Virus record (IMG/VR): IMGVR_UViG_3300035698_009098
Span: 1 to 23,985 of that record
Source of the DNA: a virus
Strand: one strand, 5' to 3'
Length of the DNA: 23,985 bases
Position 1 is the stretch's first letter; every line of letters starts with the position of its first letter. The position numbers and the translations under genes are program-made. Shown here piece after piece: positions 6,692 through 23,766 of this stretch. The notes beneath the pieces were generated by a model. The model was not told the DNA's origin, did no database searches, and worked only from the letters and a program-made list of their open reading frames with translations.

Positions 6692-6952
6692 ATGGTATTC
6701 GCACAAACAAGAGTCAGACGAACAGTAATCGGTAACATGGTAATGGAAATCTGGACAGCTACATTTACTGGAGTAGAATCTGGCAATCTAGCAACAGGAC
6801 TTGATTCTATTGAGCAAGTATTTGTTCAAGGAGATACAGTCAGAGCATCAATGACCGTAGATCATACTACAACTGCAGGAACAGTAGCTATCGCAGCAGT
6901 CACCGCAGAAGACGTTGCAACTGTCACAGTAATGGGCAGAAGCAAGGCATAA
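6692..6952 (+). CDS. Putative capsid decoration protein, copy A
   Basis: 86 residues, beta-rich and Thr/Val-rich, with a basic start (RVRRTVIGNMVMEIWTATFT) and conserved VDHTTTAGTVAI and TVTVMGRSKA at the end. It is preceded by TAGGAGGG (about 6677-6684). The next gene encodes a second copy with 66 of 86 residues identical. Small beta-barrel or sandwich proteins encoded next to capsid genes are often decoration or cement proteins, so that is the leading inference. A minor tail or connector component is also possible. No signal peptide or membrane segment is present. Confidence 0.65.
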   Translation: MVFAQTRVRRTVIGNMVMEIWTATFTGVESGNLATGLDSIEQVFVQGDTVRASMTVDHTTTAGTVAIAAVTAEDVATVTVMGRSKA

Positions 6953-6981: not shown

Positions 6982-7242
6982 ATGGCATTTACACAAACTA
7001 AAGTAAGAAGAACAGTAATCGGAAACATGGTAATGGAAATCTGGACTGGTACATTTACAAGCGTAACCGAGGGAAATCTAGCAACAGGAGTCAGCTCGAT
7101 TGAAGGAGTTATGGTTCAAGGAGACACAGTCAGAGACACAATGACCGTAGATCACACTACAACCGCAGGGACAGTCGCAATAGGATCAGTTTCAAGCGGA
7201 GACATTGTAACAGTCACCGTAATGGGGAGAAGTAAAGCGTAA
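6982..7242 (+). CDS. Putative capsid decoration protein, copy B
   Basis: 86 residues, a tandem paralogue of the preceding gene. 66 of 86 positions are identical, including VRRTVIGNMVMEIWT (8-22), VQGDTVR, MTVDHTTTAGTVAI and VTVMGRSKA. The leader is duplicated too: both genes have a GATA...AGGAGG...AATTAAAATGG arrangement. The differences cluster at residues 23-53 and 68-76, which could be exposed loops. As for copy A, decoration of the capsid is inferred from size, beta content and location. Confidence 0.65.
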   Translation: MAFTQTKVRRTVIGNMVMEIWTGTFTSVTEGNLATGVSSIEGVMVQGDTVRDTMTVDHTTTAGTVAIGSVSSGDIVTVTVMGRSKA

Positions 7243-16872: not shown

Positions 16873-18489
16873 ATGAACCAAAATAATGTATTGCCAGAAG
16901 GGGCAACAAGAAATCAAGGGAAAAACGCACAAGAAGTAAACATCGCTATTGCAAAAATGGTGGCAGATGTAGTAAAGACAACACTTGGACCAAAAGGAAT
17001 GGACAAGCTTCTGGTTGACAGTTTGGGAGATGTCACCGTAACAAATGACGGAGTCACAATTCTAAGAGAAATGACCATCGAGAATCCAGTAGCAAAGATG
17101 ATGGTAGAAATCGCAAAGACCCAAGAAACAGAGGTAGGCGATGGAACAACAACTGCAGTAGTATTGGCAGGCGAACTTCTAAACAACGCTGAAGAATTAA
17201 TAAGGAAAAAGATTCATCCGACAGTAATCGCAAAAGGATACCAGCTAGCACTAGAGAAAGCAATTACTTTGTTGGAAGAGATGTCAGTGGACATATCCAC
17301 AGAAGTTGAAAAAACACCAGCATACAAAGAAACATTAATCAATATCGCAAAGACAGCAATGACAGGCAAAGGAGCCGAATCAGAACGTGAACATTTAAGC
17401 AAGATTGTTGTGGATGCAATTCTAAAAATAGCAGATGGCGACAAAGTCGACTTGGAATCAATAATGATAGAAAAGAAGACTGGGGGAGCAGTAAGAGACA
17501 CAAAGATTGTGGAAGGAATTATTCTAGACAAATCTAAAGTCCACCCAAACATGCCAAAGGGAGTAAAAAAAGCAAAACTAGCAATCATAGATTCAGGAAT
17601 TGAAATTAAGAATCTCGAAATGGATGCAAAGATAAACATCAATAGTCCTCAACAAATGCAGGAATTCATGATGAACGAAGCAACCATGATAAAAGAGATG
17701 ATTGACCAGATTATAGAATCCAAAGCAAATGTGTTAATTTGTGGAAAGAACATAGATGACGCAGCTCAACACTATCTATCCAAAGCAGGGATATTCGCAA
17801 TGCAAAGAATCGCAAGGGAAGACCTACAACGGATAAGCCTCGCAACAGGAGCAAAGATAGTAACAAGTATTAAAGATTTAACAGGAGACGATTGTGCTTA
17901 CGTAGGGGAAGTATGTGAAGAATTAGTAGGAGATTCTAACATGATTTTTATAAAAGAATGTCAGAACCCAAAAAGTATCTCAGTGATGGTAAGAGGCGCA
18001 ACAGAACAAGTGACCTCAGAAGTCAAAAGAGCACTAGATGATGCGATGGGAGACATTGCAACAATGGTAAGATCAGGAAAGGCAGTTGGTGGAGCAGGCG
18101 CAACCGAGATGAAACTCAGTGAAGCATTAATGGATTTTTCAAAAGAACACATGGGAAGAATCCAGCTATCCATCCAATCCTTTGCTAGAGCAATGGAAGT
18201 CATTCCTGAGATTTTGTCAGAGAATGCAGGATTGGATCCAATCGATACCATGGCAGAACTTCAAGCAGAAATGGCTAAGAAGAAAAACAACTGGTGCGGA
18301 ATCGATGTATATACTGGCAAGGTTATGAACTCATGGGATGAAGGAGTAATCGAACCATTGAGAGTCAAGACCCAGGCACTGACATCAGCAGCAGAAGTAG
18401 CAATGATGGTTTTGAGGATTGATGACGTTATCAGTATAATGCACAACCCAGACGAACTGAAAGCACAACGTGCACAGGAAGGAAGATAA
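16873..18489 (+). CDS. ths: Thermosome subunit (group II chaperonin)
   Basis: 538 residues, the full length of archaeal thermosome subunits. ATG 16873 is chosen because AAGGAGG (16858-16864) sits at good spacing; the open frame extends further upstream only into the connector gene. Motifs are intact: [17 protein letters not shown] (37-53), TNDG (57-60), the nucleotide-binding [15 protein letters not shown] (89-103), the ATPase Asp in RALDDA (D390), GGAGATEM near 409, and [20 protein letters not shown] near the end. The apical and helical-lid regions are present. The C-terminus ends [11 protein letters not shown] and lacks the GGM-rich tail of many cellular thermosomes. Subunits form two stacked eight- or nine-membered rings that fold proteins in an ATP-driven cycle. 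Codon use and GC match the neighbouring virion genes, indicating long residence. It lies between connector and tail genes, so folding of virion proteins is the likely role. Confidence 0.95.
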
Positions 18490-18716
18490 GATACTGCAAG
18501 ATAAATGTGAGCCGAGAGATAGAAGTAAGATGCCTCCCAAGAATTCTGAACCACTCAATGAAGCTCTATTTTTCCTTTGATTAACGAAATATTTAAATAC
18601 ATGTGAATCTATAATCAGTTAAATAACAATTGCGAAACAGTACAAGTATTCTGAAAGCAGCACAAGTAGGCACAAACCAAGCATCGCAAAACGTATGTAA
18701 GTGAGTGAAAAATCAA
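18490..18716 (+). other. Intergenic region between thermosome and endonuclease
   Basis: 227 bases without a convincing gene. A T-rich CTATTTTTCCTTT at about 18566-18578 could terminate the thermosome transcript. A TATA box follows at 18591-18599. The 110 bases between TATA and the endonuclease ATG are an unusually long leader for this genome and may contain the original leader of the displaced tail gene. Confidence 0.5.
18591..18599 (+). promoter_or_regulatory. Archaeal promoter (TATA) before the tail module
   Basis: ATTTAAATA at 18591-18599, with purine-rich CGAAAT just before it as a possible BRE. It would start transcription near 18620 and drive the endonuclease plus the tail operon. It probably served the tail operon before the endonuclease inserted. 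Confidence 0.6.
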
Positions 18717-19355
18717 ATGGCTGATGCAAAATGTATAGACTGTGGAACGTCTCTAAAAAATTATAGAGCAATAAGATGTAAGTCTTGTAATTCTAAAAAC
18801 TATGGATTTAAAAAAAACTATATTCCCTACAATAAAAACAAACCTCTTTCTGATTTAATCAAAGAAAAAATAAGCACATCTTTAAAGGGAAAAAACAAAA
18901 ACAACAAATGGAACGTGGGGAGAGAACCAGCGAACAAAGGAAAAAGCCTTGAAGAAATGCATGGAGCTATTAAAGCAAAAGAAATCAAAAAAAAACAATC
19001 ATATTCACACATGGGACACATTCCTTCTAGGGAACAGATAAAAAAACAACTTAGAAGAAACCCTAAATCTTCATTAGAAATAAAATTCGAAAAAATAGTA
19101 GATAAATACAATTTACCATACAAATTCGTGGGAGATGGTGAAGTCATTATAGGAAGAAAGTGTCCAGACTTTATTCATACTAAAGGAAAAAAAATAGCAA
19201 TCGAAGTATTTTATAAAAAACACAAAGAGAAATTCAGGAATGGACTTGAATCATGGAAAGATAACCGTCAAAAAATATTTAACGATAACGGTTGGACAAT
19301 TGAATTTTTCAATGAAATACAAGTTAATGAGCACGAGGTGATGTCAAGATTGTAG
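18717..19355 (+). CDS. Free-standing homing endonuclease, Vsr/EDxHD-like, with N-terminal zinc finger
   Basis: 212 residues from ATG 18717 (a GTG 4 codons earlier is possible; neither has a good ribosome binding site). The N-terminus has Cys6, Cys9, Cys21 and Cys24 (CIDCG ... RCKSCN), a small zinc ribbon. A basic linker follows with a NUMOD3-like stretch (PANKGKSLEEMHGAIKAKEI, 71-90). The C-terminal nuclease has Glu121 (SSLEIKFEKI), CPDF with Asp151, KKIAIEVF with Glu163, and a W...R...F helix (ESWKDNRQKIFNDNGW). That is the layout of Vsr-like PD-(D/E)xK homing enzymes such as the EDxHD family. GC falls to about 22% in samples, well below its neighbours, as expected for a mobile gene. Its 3' end overlaps the open frame of the tail gene below. 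Confidence 0.75.
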   Translation: MADAKCIDCGTSLKNYRAIRCKSCNSKNYGFKKNYIPYNKNKPLSDLIKEKISTSLKGKNKNNKWNVGREPANKGKSLEEMHGAIKAKEIKKKQSYSHMGHIPSREQIKKQLRRNPKSSLEIKFEKIVDKYNLPYKFVGDGEVIIGRKCPDFIHTKGKKIAIEVFYKKHKEKFRNGLESWKDNRQKIFNDNGWTIEFFNEIQVNEHEVMSRL

Positions 19356-19952: not shown

Positions 19953-20903
19953 ATGACGTACCCAGCAACAGTATCATGGATTGGTTACGGATGGGAGACA
20001 GAGTTCGGAACAGTGTCAACATCAATAGCAAACGCATTCGGACATGGTGTCAAAATATCTAATTTAAGCAGAAAAAACAACGTAGAGAAAGTGTACCAAA
20101 GTGGTTCAAAAAACGCACAAGTTCTACAAGAGAAAAGATATGAAGGATCCTTGAGTGCAGAATTTATACTGGCATCCCCTTGGTTTTTCAAAGGAGTCCT
20201 TGGAAAGGTCACAGACTCAGCAACAGAATCACCATTCACACACACATTCGGAGAAGCCGATGACTTGCCAAGCATATCTCTAGCAAACAATATCTCAACA
20301 GTAGCAGTAAGGCAAGCACAGTTATTGGGTGGAGTATTTAATTCGGTGACAATATCAACAGCAATCAATGAACTGGTAAGAATCAGAGCAGACATCCCAT
20401 TTGCAGATGAAACATTCAGCACATCAACATCAAGCAAAATCACAGAATCATACGCCCTTTATTCATTTGCACAAGGAACAGTTGAATTGCCAGATGGAAG
20501 CACACTTGCACAAGTACAAAATTGCGAAGTTACGATCAACAACAACGCAGAAATGATATACGGTCAAGGAAGTAGATTTGCACAATGTGCAGTAAGCAAA
20601 CAGCGAGATTATTCGGGAAGCATCACAATGGCACTAGCCGCATCAGCTGATTTATTAGAAAAATTCTATGGTGGAACAACAGGACCAGCAGACACAGTAG
20701 CTGAAAGTGCAGACTTGGTTCTAACATTTACCAATGGAAGCACAGGAACCCTGTCAAGAAGCATCACTGCAACATTCACTGGAGTAAAATTCGATGAAGA
20801 AAGCATGCCACAGGACCCAACCCAAGTAATCATGGAAGACGTATCAATCATGATGCGAAGTTGTGCCGTAGTCGCAATTGACGCAACACAAACCGCATTA
20901 TAG
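19953..20903 (+). CDS. Major tail tube protein
   Basis: 316 residues. The start (TYPATVSWIGYGWETEFGTV) and the overall pattern match tail tube proteins of archaeal and related viruses. Next come strands with GVKISNLSRKNNVEKVYQSG and RYEGSLSAEFILASPWFFKG (outer-ring strands and the 'p..l..vlG' turn). An inserted variable beta domain follows, and a C-terminal strand pair (GSITMALAASADLLEKFYGG, later ATFTGVKFDEE). Strong coupling to the previous gene and AAGGAGG at about 19937-19943 fit a highly expressed tail subunit. It is followed by the tail assembly chaperone gene and then the tape measure, the standard tail order. No sheath gene precedes it, suggesting a non-contractile tail. Confidence 0.75.
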   Translation: MTYPATVSWIGYGWETEFGTVSTSIANAFGHGVKISNLSRKNNVEKVYQSGSKNAQVLQEKRYEGSLSAEFILASPWFFKGVLGKVTDSATESPFTHTFGEADDLPSISLANNISTVAVRQAQLLGGVFNSVTISTAINELVRIRADIPFADETFSTSTSSKITESYALYSFAQGTVELPDGSTLAQVQNCEVTINNNAEMIYGQGSRFAQCAVSKQRDYSGSITMALAASADLLEKFYGGTTGPADTVAESADLVLTFTNGSTGTLSRSITATFTGVKFDEESMPQDPTQVIMEDVSIMMRSCAVVAIDATQTAL

Positions 20904-20918
20904 ATAGGAGGAATTAGA

Positions 20919-21329
20919 ATGGAAATACAAGTATCACAACCAAAACTAGAAACCAAAAAAGAAGTAGCGTATATAGAGAGAACAATTGGCATCGAAAAAG
21001 GTGGAAAGCCAAGAAAAGTAAAAGTAAGAGAAATACCAATAGAGTGGGAAGGCAAGAAAGAAATTGTAACACTGAAAAAGTGGTCATTTGGAGAGAGAGC
21101 AAAATTCACTGAGAAGTTTCTGAAAATCGAAATGATAGGAGAGATACCAAAGACAAACATCGACATGGTAAGCATGCAGATGGAATCACTATTGACAGGA
21201 ATACACGAAGCGCCATTCCCAATAACCAGAGATTATATCGAGTACGAACTTGACGGAGGAATCGGAGAGAAACTCCATAAGGAAATCGAAAAGTTCAACA
21301 AACTAAATCCAACTAAAGAAAAAAACTGA
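20919..21329 (+). CDS. Tail assembly chaperone, short (G-like) form
   Basis: 136 residues with TAGGAGG upstream (about 20904-20910). The product is alpha/beta with a Lys/Glu-rich start (VAYIERTIGIEKGGKPRKVK), EIVTLKKWSFGERAKFTEKF and a helical end (GEKLHKEIEKFNKLNP). It lies between the tail tube and tape measure genes, where tailed viruses encode the paired G and G-T chaperones that coat the tape measure during tail assembly. The last codons are GAA AAA AAC TGA, containing a slippery heptamer, and a 72-codon open frame continues in the -1 phase. Family assignment is mainly from position and frameshift architecture. Confidence 0.75.
   Translation: MEIQVSQPKLETKKEVAYIERTIGIEKGGKPRKVKVREIPIEWEGKKEIVTLKKWSFGERAKFTEKFLKIEMIGEIPKTNIDMVSMQMESLLTGIHEAPFPITRDYIEYELDGGIGEKLHKEIEKFNKLNPTKEKN
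21320..21326 (+). promoter_or_regulatory. -1 programmed ribosomal frameshift site A AAA AAC
   Basis: The heptamer AAAAAAC is in the correct phase (GAA AAA AAC TGA) directly before the stop codon 21327-21329. After a -1 slip the ribosome reads CTG AGA TGG onward. This is the X XXY YYZ pattern used in many tailed-phage chaperone genes. No strong stimulatory hairpin was identified by eye just downstream. Confidence 0.75.
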
Positions 21330-21544
21330 GATGGGCAATCAAGCATGGAACCGATAATCACGAAACCATCAGGACCCTTCAATATTTCCGATTGAAGTAT
21401 TATCTTGGAATGGGAGTAGAGGAAGTCGACAATGCTGATGCAACTTTAATCGATGCATACATGATTGCCCTTGAAGAAGTCACTAGCCAAGGCGGTGGCT
21501 CAAAGAAAGAGAATGATGAAATTGCGAGAGCATTCATGGGGTAG
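21326..21544 (+). CDS. Tail assembly chaperone -1 frame extension (T-like), made as a fusion
   Basis: A 72-codon frame in -1 phase to the chaperone gene, ending at TAG 21542-21544. It reads LRWAIKHGTDNHETIRTLQ from the shift point and continues through a helical region (YFRLKYYLGMGVEEVDNADA, IDAYMIALEEV) to KENDEIARAFMG. There is no ATG near its beginning; the first in-frame ATG is about 28 codons in. So it is best explained as the T domain of a G-T fusion of about 208 residues. In other tailed phages T binds the tail tube protein while G binds the tape measure. The usual G to G-T ratio is low, but the efficiency here is unknown. Confidence 0.75.
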   Translation: MRWAIKHGTDNHETIRTLQYFRLKYYLGMGVEEVDNADATLIDAYMIALEEVTSQGGGSKKENDEIARAFMG

Positions 21545-21547
21545 ACA

Positions 21548-22045
21548 ATGGCAGAAGAAAAAAAACTTTGTTTAAATTGCAAGAAGCAAATTGGAGCAAG
21601 AAGCATCCGATGTAGAACTTGTAACAATAAACAAAAAGAGGGAACATTCATGCCAAAAAACAAACCATGGAATATCGGAATGCCTAGAAAAGAGTGGAAC
21701 CCAGTGACCATAGAAGACAAAGAAAGAATAAGAAAAATAGGACTAAAAAACAGGGGAAGAAAAAGACCCGACTTGTCTGAATATAATAAATCACTTAGGG
21801 GAATTAGTAGAACAGACAGACCATTCTATAAGGGGCAAACGGCTTATAGACGATTCGCCAAAGAGAATTTAAAACAGGCTTGTTCAGACTGTAGAACAAA
21901 AGAAAAGCTTGTCGTACATCACATAGACACAGACCACTTTAATAATAGTCCCGACAATTTGGAAATATTATGCAGAAGTTGTCATATGAAAAAGCACCAC
22001 AAAATTCATGGAGGCGATGGAAGATTTCTGACCAATATGGCATGA
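21548..22045 (+). CDS. Free-standing HNH homing endonuclease with N-terminal zinc finger
   Basis: 165 residues. Cys8, Cys11, Cys22 and Cys25 form an N-terminal zinc ribbon (CLNCKK ... RCRTCNN) like that of the endonuclease at 18717. A basic linker rich in NIGMPRKEW and KNRGRKRP-type segments follows. The C-terminal HNH domain has CSDC (112-115), VVHHIDTDH with His124-His125, NNSPDNLEILC with Asn137, and CRSCHMKKHH (142-151). That is the complete zinc-bound beta-beta-alpha metal nuclease core. It sits between the frameshifted chaperone gene and the tape measure gene, with 3 bases of space before and a 4-base ATGA overlap after. Base composition is more A+T-rich than its neighbours, as for a mobile gene. 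It probably cuts virus relatives lacking the insertion. Confidence 0.85.
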   Translation: MAEEKKLCLNCKKQIGARSIRCRTCNNKQKEGTFMPKNKPWNIGMPRKEWNPVTIEDKERIRKIGLKNRGRKRPDLSEYNKSLRGISRTDRPFYKGQTAYRRFAKENLKQACSDCRTKEKLVVHHIDTDHFNNSPDNLEILCRSCHMKKHHKIHGGDGRFLTNMA

Positions 22046-23766
22046 AAGTATGGCTTGAACTCCAAGTCAAAAACCTTAAAAAAGTAGAAACAGAAGTTAA
22101 GGATAGCTTGAAATCTATAGATATGGATGCCATGGTTTCAAAAGCTCGTGATGCCTCTGCCCAGATGAAGGGAGCAATGGGTAAACTTGATTTAAACGGA
22201 TTAAAAAAAGCACTTAGCCAAAAGAAAGATTCTCAAAAAGTATCAGATGACCAGGGTGGAATCCTTAAAGGAATACGTGAACAAATTGTAGCAAGCAAAA
22301 AAGCAGCCGAAAGCGCAAAAACAATCCCAGACTTAACAGCAGCTTTAAAGAAAAAAAACGAATTTGAAGGCAAACTTAAAGCAGCCCAGAGCCTAGGAGA
22401 AGAAGGAGCAGCATTGGGAAAACTTGCAGCAACCGCAGGAGTTGTTGTTGGTGTTTTATATGGAATCAAAAAAGCAACAGAACGAGTTCTAGGTGAATTA
22501 ATAAAATCCTCTCCATATTTACAAGGAATACTTAACGTAATGGGAAGAGCATGGACAAATATGTGGCGACCATTCGGTGATTTTTTAGGGTCACTTCTCA
22601 GACCTTTGGCGATTTCTTTATTAAGACTTTCAGTTAGATGGTTGCAATATACTAGGACAGACGAAGGTAAAAGTACAGTTGAAAATTTAACTAACGCAGG
22701 AATCGGTGCTGCAGTGGGGTCAGCGATAGGAACAGTAGCTGGTGGAGTTTCAGGTGGACCAACAGGAGCAATCGCAGGAGCAGCCGCTGGTGGAGTAGCA
22801 GGAGCAGCCGTTGGAGCATCAGCAACAACCATCTTTGATATAGGATACTGGTTGGGAGAAAAGCTTGCAGAAATAGTTATAGGAATTTTCGATATTGGCG
22901 TTTGGCTGGGTGAGAAACTTGCAGACTTAGTTATAGGAATTTTCGATATTGGCGTTTGGCTAGGCGAAAAACTTGCAGACTTAGTTGTGGGAGTGTTTGA
23001 TGTCGGTGTCTGGCTAGGCGAAAAACTCGCAGATATAGTAATAGGAATCTTTGATATCGCAGACTGGCTTTGGGAAAAAGTCACAGAGATGTGGAATTGG
23101 AGCTATGATTTTGCAGCATGGCTCTGGGGAAAAATAAAAGGAGCATTCGCATCAGCATGGAGAAAATTAAAAGAATTCTCACAATGGTTATGGGACAAAG
23201 TAACAGGGGCACTATCAGGAACATGGACAAAATTGTCAGAATTTTCAGCATGGATATGGAAGAAAATAACAGAAGCCCTAGCAAACGCATGGATTAAACT
23301 TGGAACATTTTCAACTTGGATATATGAAGAAATAACTGGAGCATTGTCTACTATAAGTACTAAACTTGGAACATTTTCAACTTGGATATATGAAGAAATA
23401 ACTGGAGCATTGTCTAACTTAGCAACCAAACTTGGAGGCATAGGGTCATTCTTGTATACACAAGTGACAGAAAGCATCAAGACAGCATTCTCAAATTTCA
23501 AATTTGGCTGGTCATGGAGTTGGTTTCAAGGGCAAGGACAGACAGGAATAAACAGTGTTCCAAAAGACGGATTGTATAATTTGCACGCAGGAGAAACTGT
23601 CACAAACTCTTCTAGAAGTGCAAGAGAAGATAAAGCAAAAAGTATTATATTTAGTCCAAACTTTACAATTAACTCATCAGGAGCAGGAACAGGAGAAATA
23701 GAAAACACAATCAAAAACACAGCAAGGTTGCTGGAATTTGAAGTACGAAGGAGGAATCTAGTATGA
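22042..23766 (+). CDS. Tail tape measure protein
   Basis: 574 residues from ATG 22042, which overlaps the HNH stop (TGA 22043-22045). The frame is open further upstream but only inside the HNH gene. The N-terminal 130 residues are coiled coil (LQVKNLKKVETEVKDSLKSI). A hydrophobic section follows (131-145 and a Gly/Ala-rich stretch at 217-262), then five 18-residue repeats (FDIGVWLGEKLADLVIGI type, 265-354). After these come about five 22-residue repeats (KLGTFSTWIYEEITGALS type, 375-484), each with conserved Trp. The C-terminus VPKDGLYNLHAGETV (507-521) is the classic tape measure end. The protein fills the tail tube and sets tail length. At about 0.15 nm per residue it would specify a short tail of roughly 85 nm. 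The upstream chaperone supports the call. Confidence 0.9.
   Translation: MKVWLELQVKNLKKVETEVKDSLKSIDMDAMVSKARDASAQMKGAMGKLDLNGLKKALSQKKDSQKVSDDQGGILKGIREQIVASKKAAESAKTIPDLTAALKKKNEFEGKLKAAQSLGEEGAALGKLAATAGVVVGVLYGIKKATERVLGELIKSSPYLQGILNVMGRAWTNMWRPFGDFLGSLLRPLAISLLRLSVRWLQYTRTDEGKSTVENLTNAGIGAAVGSAIGTVAGGVSGGPTGAIAGAAAGGVAGAAVGASATTIFDIGYWLGEKLAEIVIGIFDIGVWLGEKLADLVIGIFDIGVWLGEKLADLVVGVFDVGVWLGEKLADIVIGIFDIADWLWEKVTEMWNWSYDFAAWLWGKIKGAFASAWRKLKEFSQWLWDKVTGALSGTWTKLSEFSAWIWKKITEALANAWIKLGTFSTWIYEEITGALSTISTKLGTFSTWIYEEITGALSNLATKLGGIGSFLYTQVTESIKTAFSNFKFGWSWSWFQGQGQTGINSVPKDGLYNLHAGETVTNSSRSAREDKAKSIIFSPNFTINSSGAGTGEIENTIKNTARLLEFEVRRRNLV
22834..23103 (+). repeat. 54-bp tandem coding repeats in the tape measure gene (5 copies)
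   Basis: Five 54-base units encode the FDIGxWLGEKLAxxVIGI motif. Units starting near 22888 and 22942 are nearly identical at the DNA level, which suggests recent duplication or gene conversion. Confidence 0.8.
23295..23416 (+). repeat. 66-bp tandem repeat in the tape measure gene
   Basis: Bases 23295-23350 and 23361-23416 are identical over 56 bases, at an offset of 66 bases. They encode KLGTFSTWIYEEITGALS twice, the two most recent copies of the 22-residue repeat family. Confidence 0.85.

Follow-up and report, generated by a model that had tools for sequence, protein, structure and literature searches.

The tail assembly chaperone gene of the virus analysed here very probably yields two proteins, a short G-like product and a longer G-T fusion, by programmed −1 ribosomal frameshifting. 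According to this reading, which draws on comparison of sequences, most ribosomes translating the gene would terminate at a TGA codon to give the short protein, while a minority would slip one base back on the heptamer A_AAA_AAC, where tRNA-Lys and tRNA-Asn would pair anew with AAA AAA, and would then read on in the −1 frame to give a fusion of some 208 residues. Together the two products would aid folding of the tape measure protein and assembly of the tail tube, as in phage lambda. We infer the slippage, its taking place on the ribosome, its efficiency and the roles of the products; the gene order, the heptamer and its phase are seen directly in the window (that is, the whole stretch of 23,985 nucleotides of viral DNA that was analysed), and relatives conserve the heptamer, the −1 tail and, in most cases, a stop codon adjacent to the heptamer. 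The G/G-T arrangement in a tail chaperone gene that had originally been predicted here is thus supported by gene order, by phase, by a close relative (L001) and by a second group of viruses.

The frameshift site and its surroundings

In tailed phages the G/G-T −1 frameshift is conserved, and the gene concerned sits between those for the tail tube and the tape measure. The relevant features of the window, all on the + strand, are as follows.

16873–18489, +: virus-encoded thermosome (PF00118, E 7.6e-169; L001 alignment; tree)
19953–20903, +: major tail tube protein (PF18906 Phage_tube_2, E 2e-18; HCTV-16 tail tube, tblastn E 5e-24)
20919–21329, +: tail assembly chaperone, putative zero-frame product (G-like, 136 aa; ORF, L001 homologue)
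21320–21326, +: slippery heptamer A_AAA_AAC (sequence; related sites in relatives)
21327–21329, +: zero-frame stop TGA, immediately 3′ of the heptamer (sequence; adjacent stop in relatives)
21323–21544, +: −1 frame extension (T-like, about 72 codons) including its TAG stop (translation; L001)
21548–22045, +: HNH endonuclease ORF, outside the mechanism (HNH PHROGs, best E 7.6e-12; missing in L001)
22042–23766, +: tape measure protein (phrog_167 tail length tape measure, E 3.9e-8; L001 homologue)

The chaperone gene is flanked by the tail tube gene, directly 5′, and by the tape measure gene, from which it is separated in the window by the HNH ORF, an insertion that L001 does not have. The last codons of the zero frame of the chaperone ORF are AAA GAA AAA AAC TGA. 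Exactly in the −1 phase, a second frame runs without a stop from 21317 to the TAG at 21542–21544 (73 codons when counted from the AAA at 21323), and the 13 nt shared by both frames contain A_AAA_AAC as their sole slippery heptamer. The −1 frame offers possible starts only late, with a TTG 22 codons past the slip and ATG codons at 28, 45 and 70. The original description of a gene ending GAA AAA AAC TGA, continued in the −1 phase by a frame without an early start, is therefore confirmed from the sequence and its ORFs. Such a combination, of a heptamer in the overlap with a long −1 extension free of early starts, occurs for just one of the 22 plus-strand ORFs of at least 100 aa in the window, namely the chaperone ORF, and in random sequence of the region's composition a −1 frame stays open for at least 71 codons past a stop in 1.1% of cases. 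Counted simply as a word, AAAAAAC shows no enrichment in the A-rich window (16 observed against 13.7 expected) and its count was dropped as evidence, so that the argument rests instead on how the heptamer is phased with the codons, where it lies and how it is conserved.

Database searches with the window chaperone gave no family match, nor did known phages yield a match when queried directly with the protein; a scan of viral sequences using the −1 tail alone as query found no relative, and a scan with a tape measure alignment was also without a match. The structure model of the window G protein is poor (pLDDT 45.6).

Some further observations concern the neighbouring genes. The HNH ORF at 21548–22045 separates ATGGCAGAA, which corresponds to the start of the L001 tape measure, from the remainder of the tape measure gene, and in the window this gene now seemingly starts at the ATG at 22042, which overlaps the stop of the HNH ORF in the sequence ATGA. 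HNH-like insertion is seen also in L109 (2784–3335), a virus of the second group described below, where the ORF lies after the tail tube gene and just 5′ of the chaperone gene, and likewise in L111. A 216-aa ORF (18705–19355) separates the window thermosome from the tail gene that comes next; it has weak family matches only (zinc ribbon), L001 has no comparable ORF at that place, and it is possibly another inserted endonuclease. Elsewhere, two neighbouring and closely similar 86-aa ORFs (6692–6952 and 6982–7242) are apparently a tandem duplication.

Conservation of the site in relatives

The one close relative of the window chaperone that was found is on the IMG/VR contig L001 (3995–4408), where the zero-frame product is 69% identical to that of the window and the −1 tail 61% identical. 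Here the gene ends CAA AAA AAA AAG TAA, so the site is A_AAA_AAG, again with a stop directly 3′. Differences between the two tails fall at −1 frame codon positions 1, 2 and 3 in the numbers 26, 14 and 42, an excess at third positions; dN is 0.33, but dS is saturated, for which reason a dN/dS ratio is omitted here.

A second group of viruses was reached by way of L092, found in a search with the Pfam tail-tube family, which led to its viral relatives L093–L095 and L100–L118. Twenty loci were readable and 18 of these are distinct. Every locus has the same layout, in which a G gene of 121–136 aa leads into a −1 tail of some 76–80 codons, homologous within the group. The heptamer is A_AAA_AAC in 14 of the 18, A_AAA_AAA in three and A_AAA_AAT in one, and the zero-frame stop is adjacent to it in 12, one codon further on in two, three codons in three and 15 codons in the last. 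The tails contain no stop in the −1 frame, as against 1–16 in each other frame, and their mean amino-acid identity is 51% with a median dN/dS of 0.22 (60 computable pairs). The codon 5′ of AAA may encode Ala, Val, Thr, Leu, Ile or Lys, yet it ends in A at every locus (background 39%). An in-phase A_AAA_AA hexamer is found elsewhere in these genes at only 5 of 2379 codons; AAA makes up 60% of their Lys codons and AAC 37% of their Asn codons. As the sequences of the group are related to one another, their conserved sites should not be counted as independent events.

For the G protein of this group a confident structure model was obtained (pLDDT 77.5), the best matches of which are viral tail assembly chaperones (Bacillus phage Gemini, E 1.5e-5); against 3klu (YqbN) it gives Z 8.0 over 102 residues with an rmsd of 3.9, a Z near 8 being moderate. 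The modelled fold resembles those of known tail assembly chaperones. Comparison by hhalign of the window G and T with those of the second group detected no homology, which means that the second group should be taken as having the same arrangement at the same gene position, its homology to the window being not proven. A MAG that carries a thermosome and belongs to the phylum of a Woesearchaeota MAG has one member in its bin; the terminase of a member has weak matches to a halovirus and to Firmicutes phages alike.

Joint conservation of the heptamer and the −1 frame, proposed at the outset as a check, is found in L001, and the same layout recurs at the 18 loci of the second group. No single-frame fusion was seen in either, nor is there among the homologues any clear case of a separate tail gene with its own start, L092 alone having an ATG near the junction.

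RNA structure 3′ of the slip site

Folding of the 70 nt past the slip is no better than that of shuffled sequences in the window (z +0.8) or in L001 (z +1.5), and when four lengths of the window sequence were folded z ranged from +0.5 to −0.5; the test covered simple hairpins beginning 5–9 nt 3′ of the heptamer. With no hairpin visible, slippage in the window would probably depend on the run of A itself, perhaps together with pausing at the adjacent stop; that such pausing aids slippage, as originally suggested, would fit the conservation of the stop.

A different combination is seen at L089, a tail-tube relative that came from a tail-tube profile search of 371 genomes from the phylum of a Woesearchaeota MAG, and whose contig is binned in a thermosome-bearing MAG. 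Its tail chaperone gene carries A_AAT_TTT, with the stop three codons later and, 8 nt 3′ of the heptamer, a long, strong hairpin (z −4.4; heptamer and hairpin at 2668–2722), the sole strong one among the loci folded. A scan of viral contigs with the L089 tail tube gave no match. One further tail-tube profile match, L090 (G257, E 7e-4), was rejected as spurious, being surrounded by low-complexity ORFs without tail genes. The stop-adjacent poly-A sites thus appear to work without a hairpin, whereas L089 has the classical pairing of heptamer and hairpin. In E. coli, A_AAA_AAC slips far less than A_AAA_AAG (PMC5009743). It is conceivable, though on present indications rather doubtful, that a compact, hairpin-free cassette of A_AAA_AAC and an adjacent stop serves for frameshifting in viruses of DPANN-type archaea, where archaeal tRNAs or slow termination would make the heptamer slippery in a way that differs from E. 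coli, while lineages with a different heptamer (such as A_AAT_TTT in L089) add a hairpin.

Alternative explanations

The −1 frame could also be reached if the polymerase were to add or drop an A within the run, leaving a normal ribosome to read the edited mRNA. Runs of A could slip in this manner, and there are 7 A in the window and 9–10 in several relatives such as L001, L092 and L093, but the sites of many relatives have just 6 (GCAAAAAAC, GTAAAAAAC), which falls short of the length usually required for polymerase slippage. This mechanism would moreover not require the heptamer to stay in register with the codons, as it does, and L089 has AAAATTTT with a hairpin of the kind typical of ribosomal sites; transcriptional slippage is, all told, very improbable. 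Slightly less probable still is that ribosomes re-initiate past the TGA and make the tail as a separate protein. An ATG does lie two codons past the slip in L092, and the window has an out-of-frame ATG just 3′ of the stop, but the first TTG and the first ATG in the −1 frame of the window both come beyond the conserved RWA-KHGT segment, most second-group loci offer no start for 13–50 codons, and the conserved heptamer would be unnecessary.

Homopolymers being prone to errors, it might finally be supposed that the A run was misread in sequencing or misassembled, and that what is really a single-frame fusion gene was split thereby. This is extremely improbable, as the identical −1 break is present in L001 and in 18 of 18 distinct loci of the second group, which come from many metagenomes, none of them with a fusion; the A run itself varies from 6 to 10 among relatives with the −1 phase retained, which again argues against error. 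Several points count against programmed frameshifting, the preferred reading: the single close relative, the poor model of the window G and its lack of a family match, the missing profile link to the second group, the lack of a stimulatory hairpin, the low slippage of A_AAA_AAC in E. coli, and the Methanofastidiosa virus vir519, whose interval between tail tube and tape measure holds only a 94-aa ORF with no −1 tail.

The probable host

Evidence as to the host comes mainly from the thermosome, whose start at 16873 was taken from the match to L001 (the mechanical ORF start being 16801). The thermosomes of the window (16873–18489) and L001 (624–2222) are 79% identical and form a long branch beside Woesearchaeota thermosomes; in a tree of 41 sequences the window protein groups with seven from Woesearchaeota and Nanoarchaeota (support 95/86). 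A scan of genomes with a thermosome alignment had returned chance pattern matches only, while a single-protein query succeeded. The reference thermosomes were chosen via shared peptides, so that sampling was not neutral, and a host among the uncultured DPANN archaea is regarded as probable, not proven. Matches to the major capsid protein are to haloviruses and a Methanofastidiosa virus. That the virus is archaeal, as first proposed, is supported by the thermosome gene and by the haloviral relatives of its tail tube and capsid.

Comparison with known systems

The nearest archaeal parallels are the tailed haloviruses HVTV-1, HCTV-1, HCTV-2 and HCTV-5, which have tail tubes and capsids related to those of the window and for which G-T frameshifting has been inferred, HCTV-2 having the very same heptamer, A_AAA_AAC (PMC5009743; PMC8211752). 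For two further tail-tube and capsid relatives, HCTV-16 and HVTV-2, the database records annotate the chaperone genes as putative programmed −1 frameshifts. Their sites, G_GGA_AAC and G_GGA_AAG respectively, have the stop several codons 3′, where that of the window is adjacent, and their hosts are haloarchaea, whereas that of the window is probably a DPANN archaeon. Profile comparison of the window G/T with the haloviral chaperones gave a weak score (probability 16%, E 0.0016), and hence no homology is claimed.

The sole archaeal −1 frameshift to have been studied experimentally is that of fucA in Saccharolobus solfataricus, and a 2021 review lists one demonstrated archaeal case, the viral ones being just reported or apparent (PMC8211752). 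Like the window, fucA has an A-rich slippery site; unlike it, fucA encodes an enzyme of the cell rather than a tail protein, and it contains rare codons and a putative stem-loop. As to the original statement that −1 frameshifting is little documented in archaea, predictions had already been made for haloviruses, and with A_AAA_AAC known from HCTV-2 the novelty is below what had been claimed. A literature search, covering mostly papers free of subscription, found none that brings together Woesearchaeota, virus and frameshifting.

These conserved natural sites in uncultured viruses vary in the last base of the heptamer (AAC, AAG, AAT and AAA), in the distance to the stop (0, 1, 3 or 15 codons) and in whether a hairpin accompanies them, so that the causes of slippage on archaeal ribosomes become practical to study. 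A_AAA_AAC is useful for this question, since it is a strong site for mammalian ribosomes but a weak one for those of E. coli.

In phage lambda, and by prediction in the window, a short product and a −1 fusion come from a gene between tail tube and tape measure, with a slippery heptamer close to where the short frame terminates (PMC5009743); the window differs in its heptamer, in its probable archaeal host and in having no family-level sequence match. The kind of system is already known, and what is new lies in the virus lineages, their probable DPANN host and a conserved site that is adjacent to the stop and free of a hairpin.
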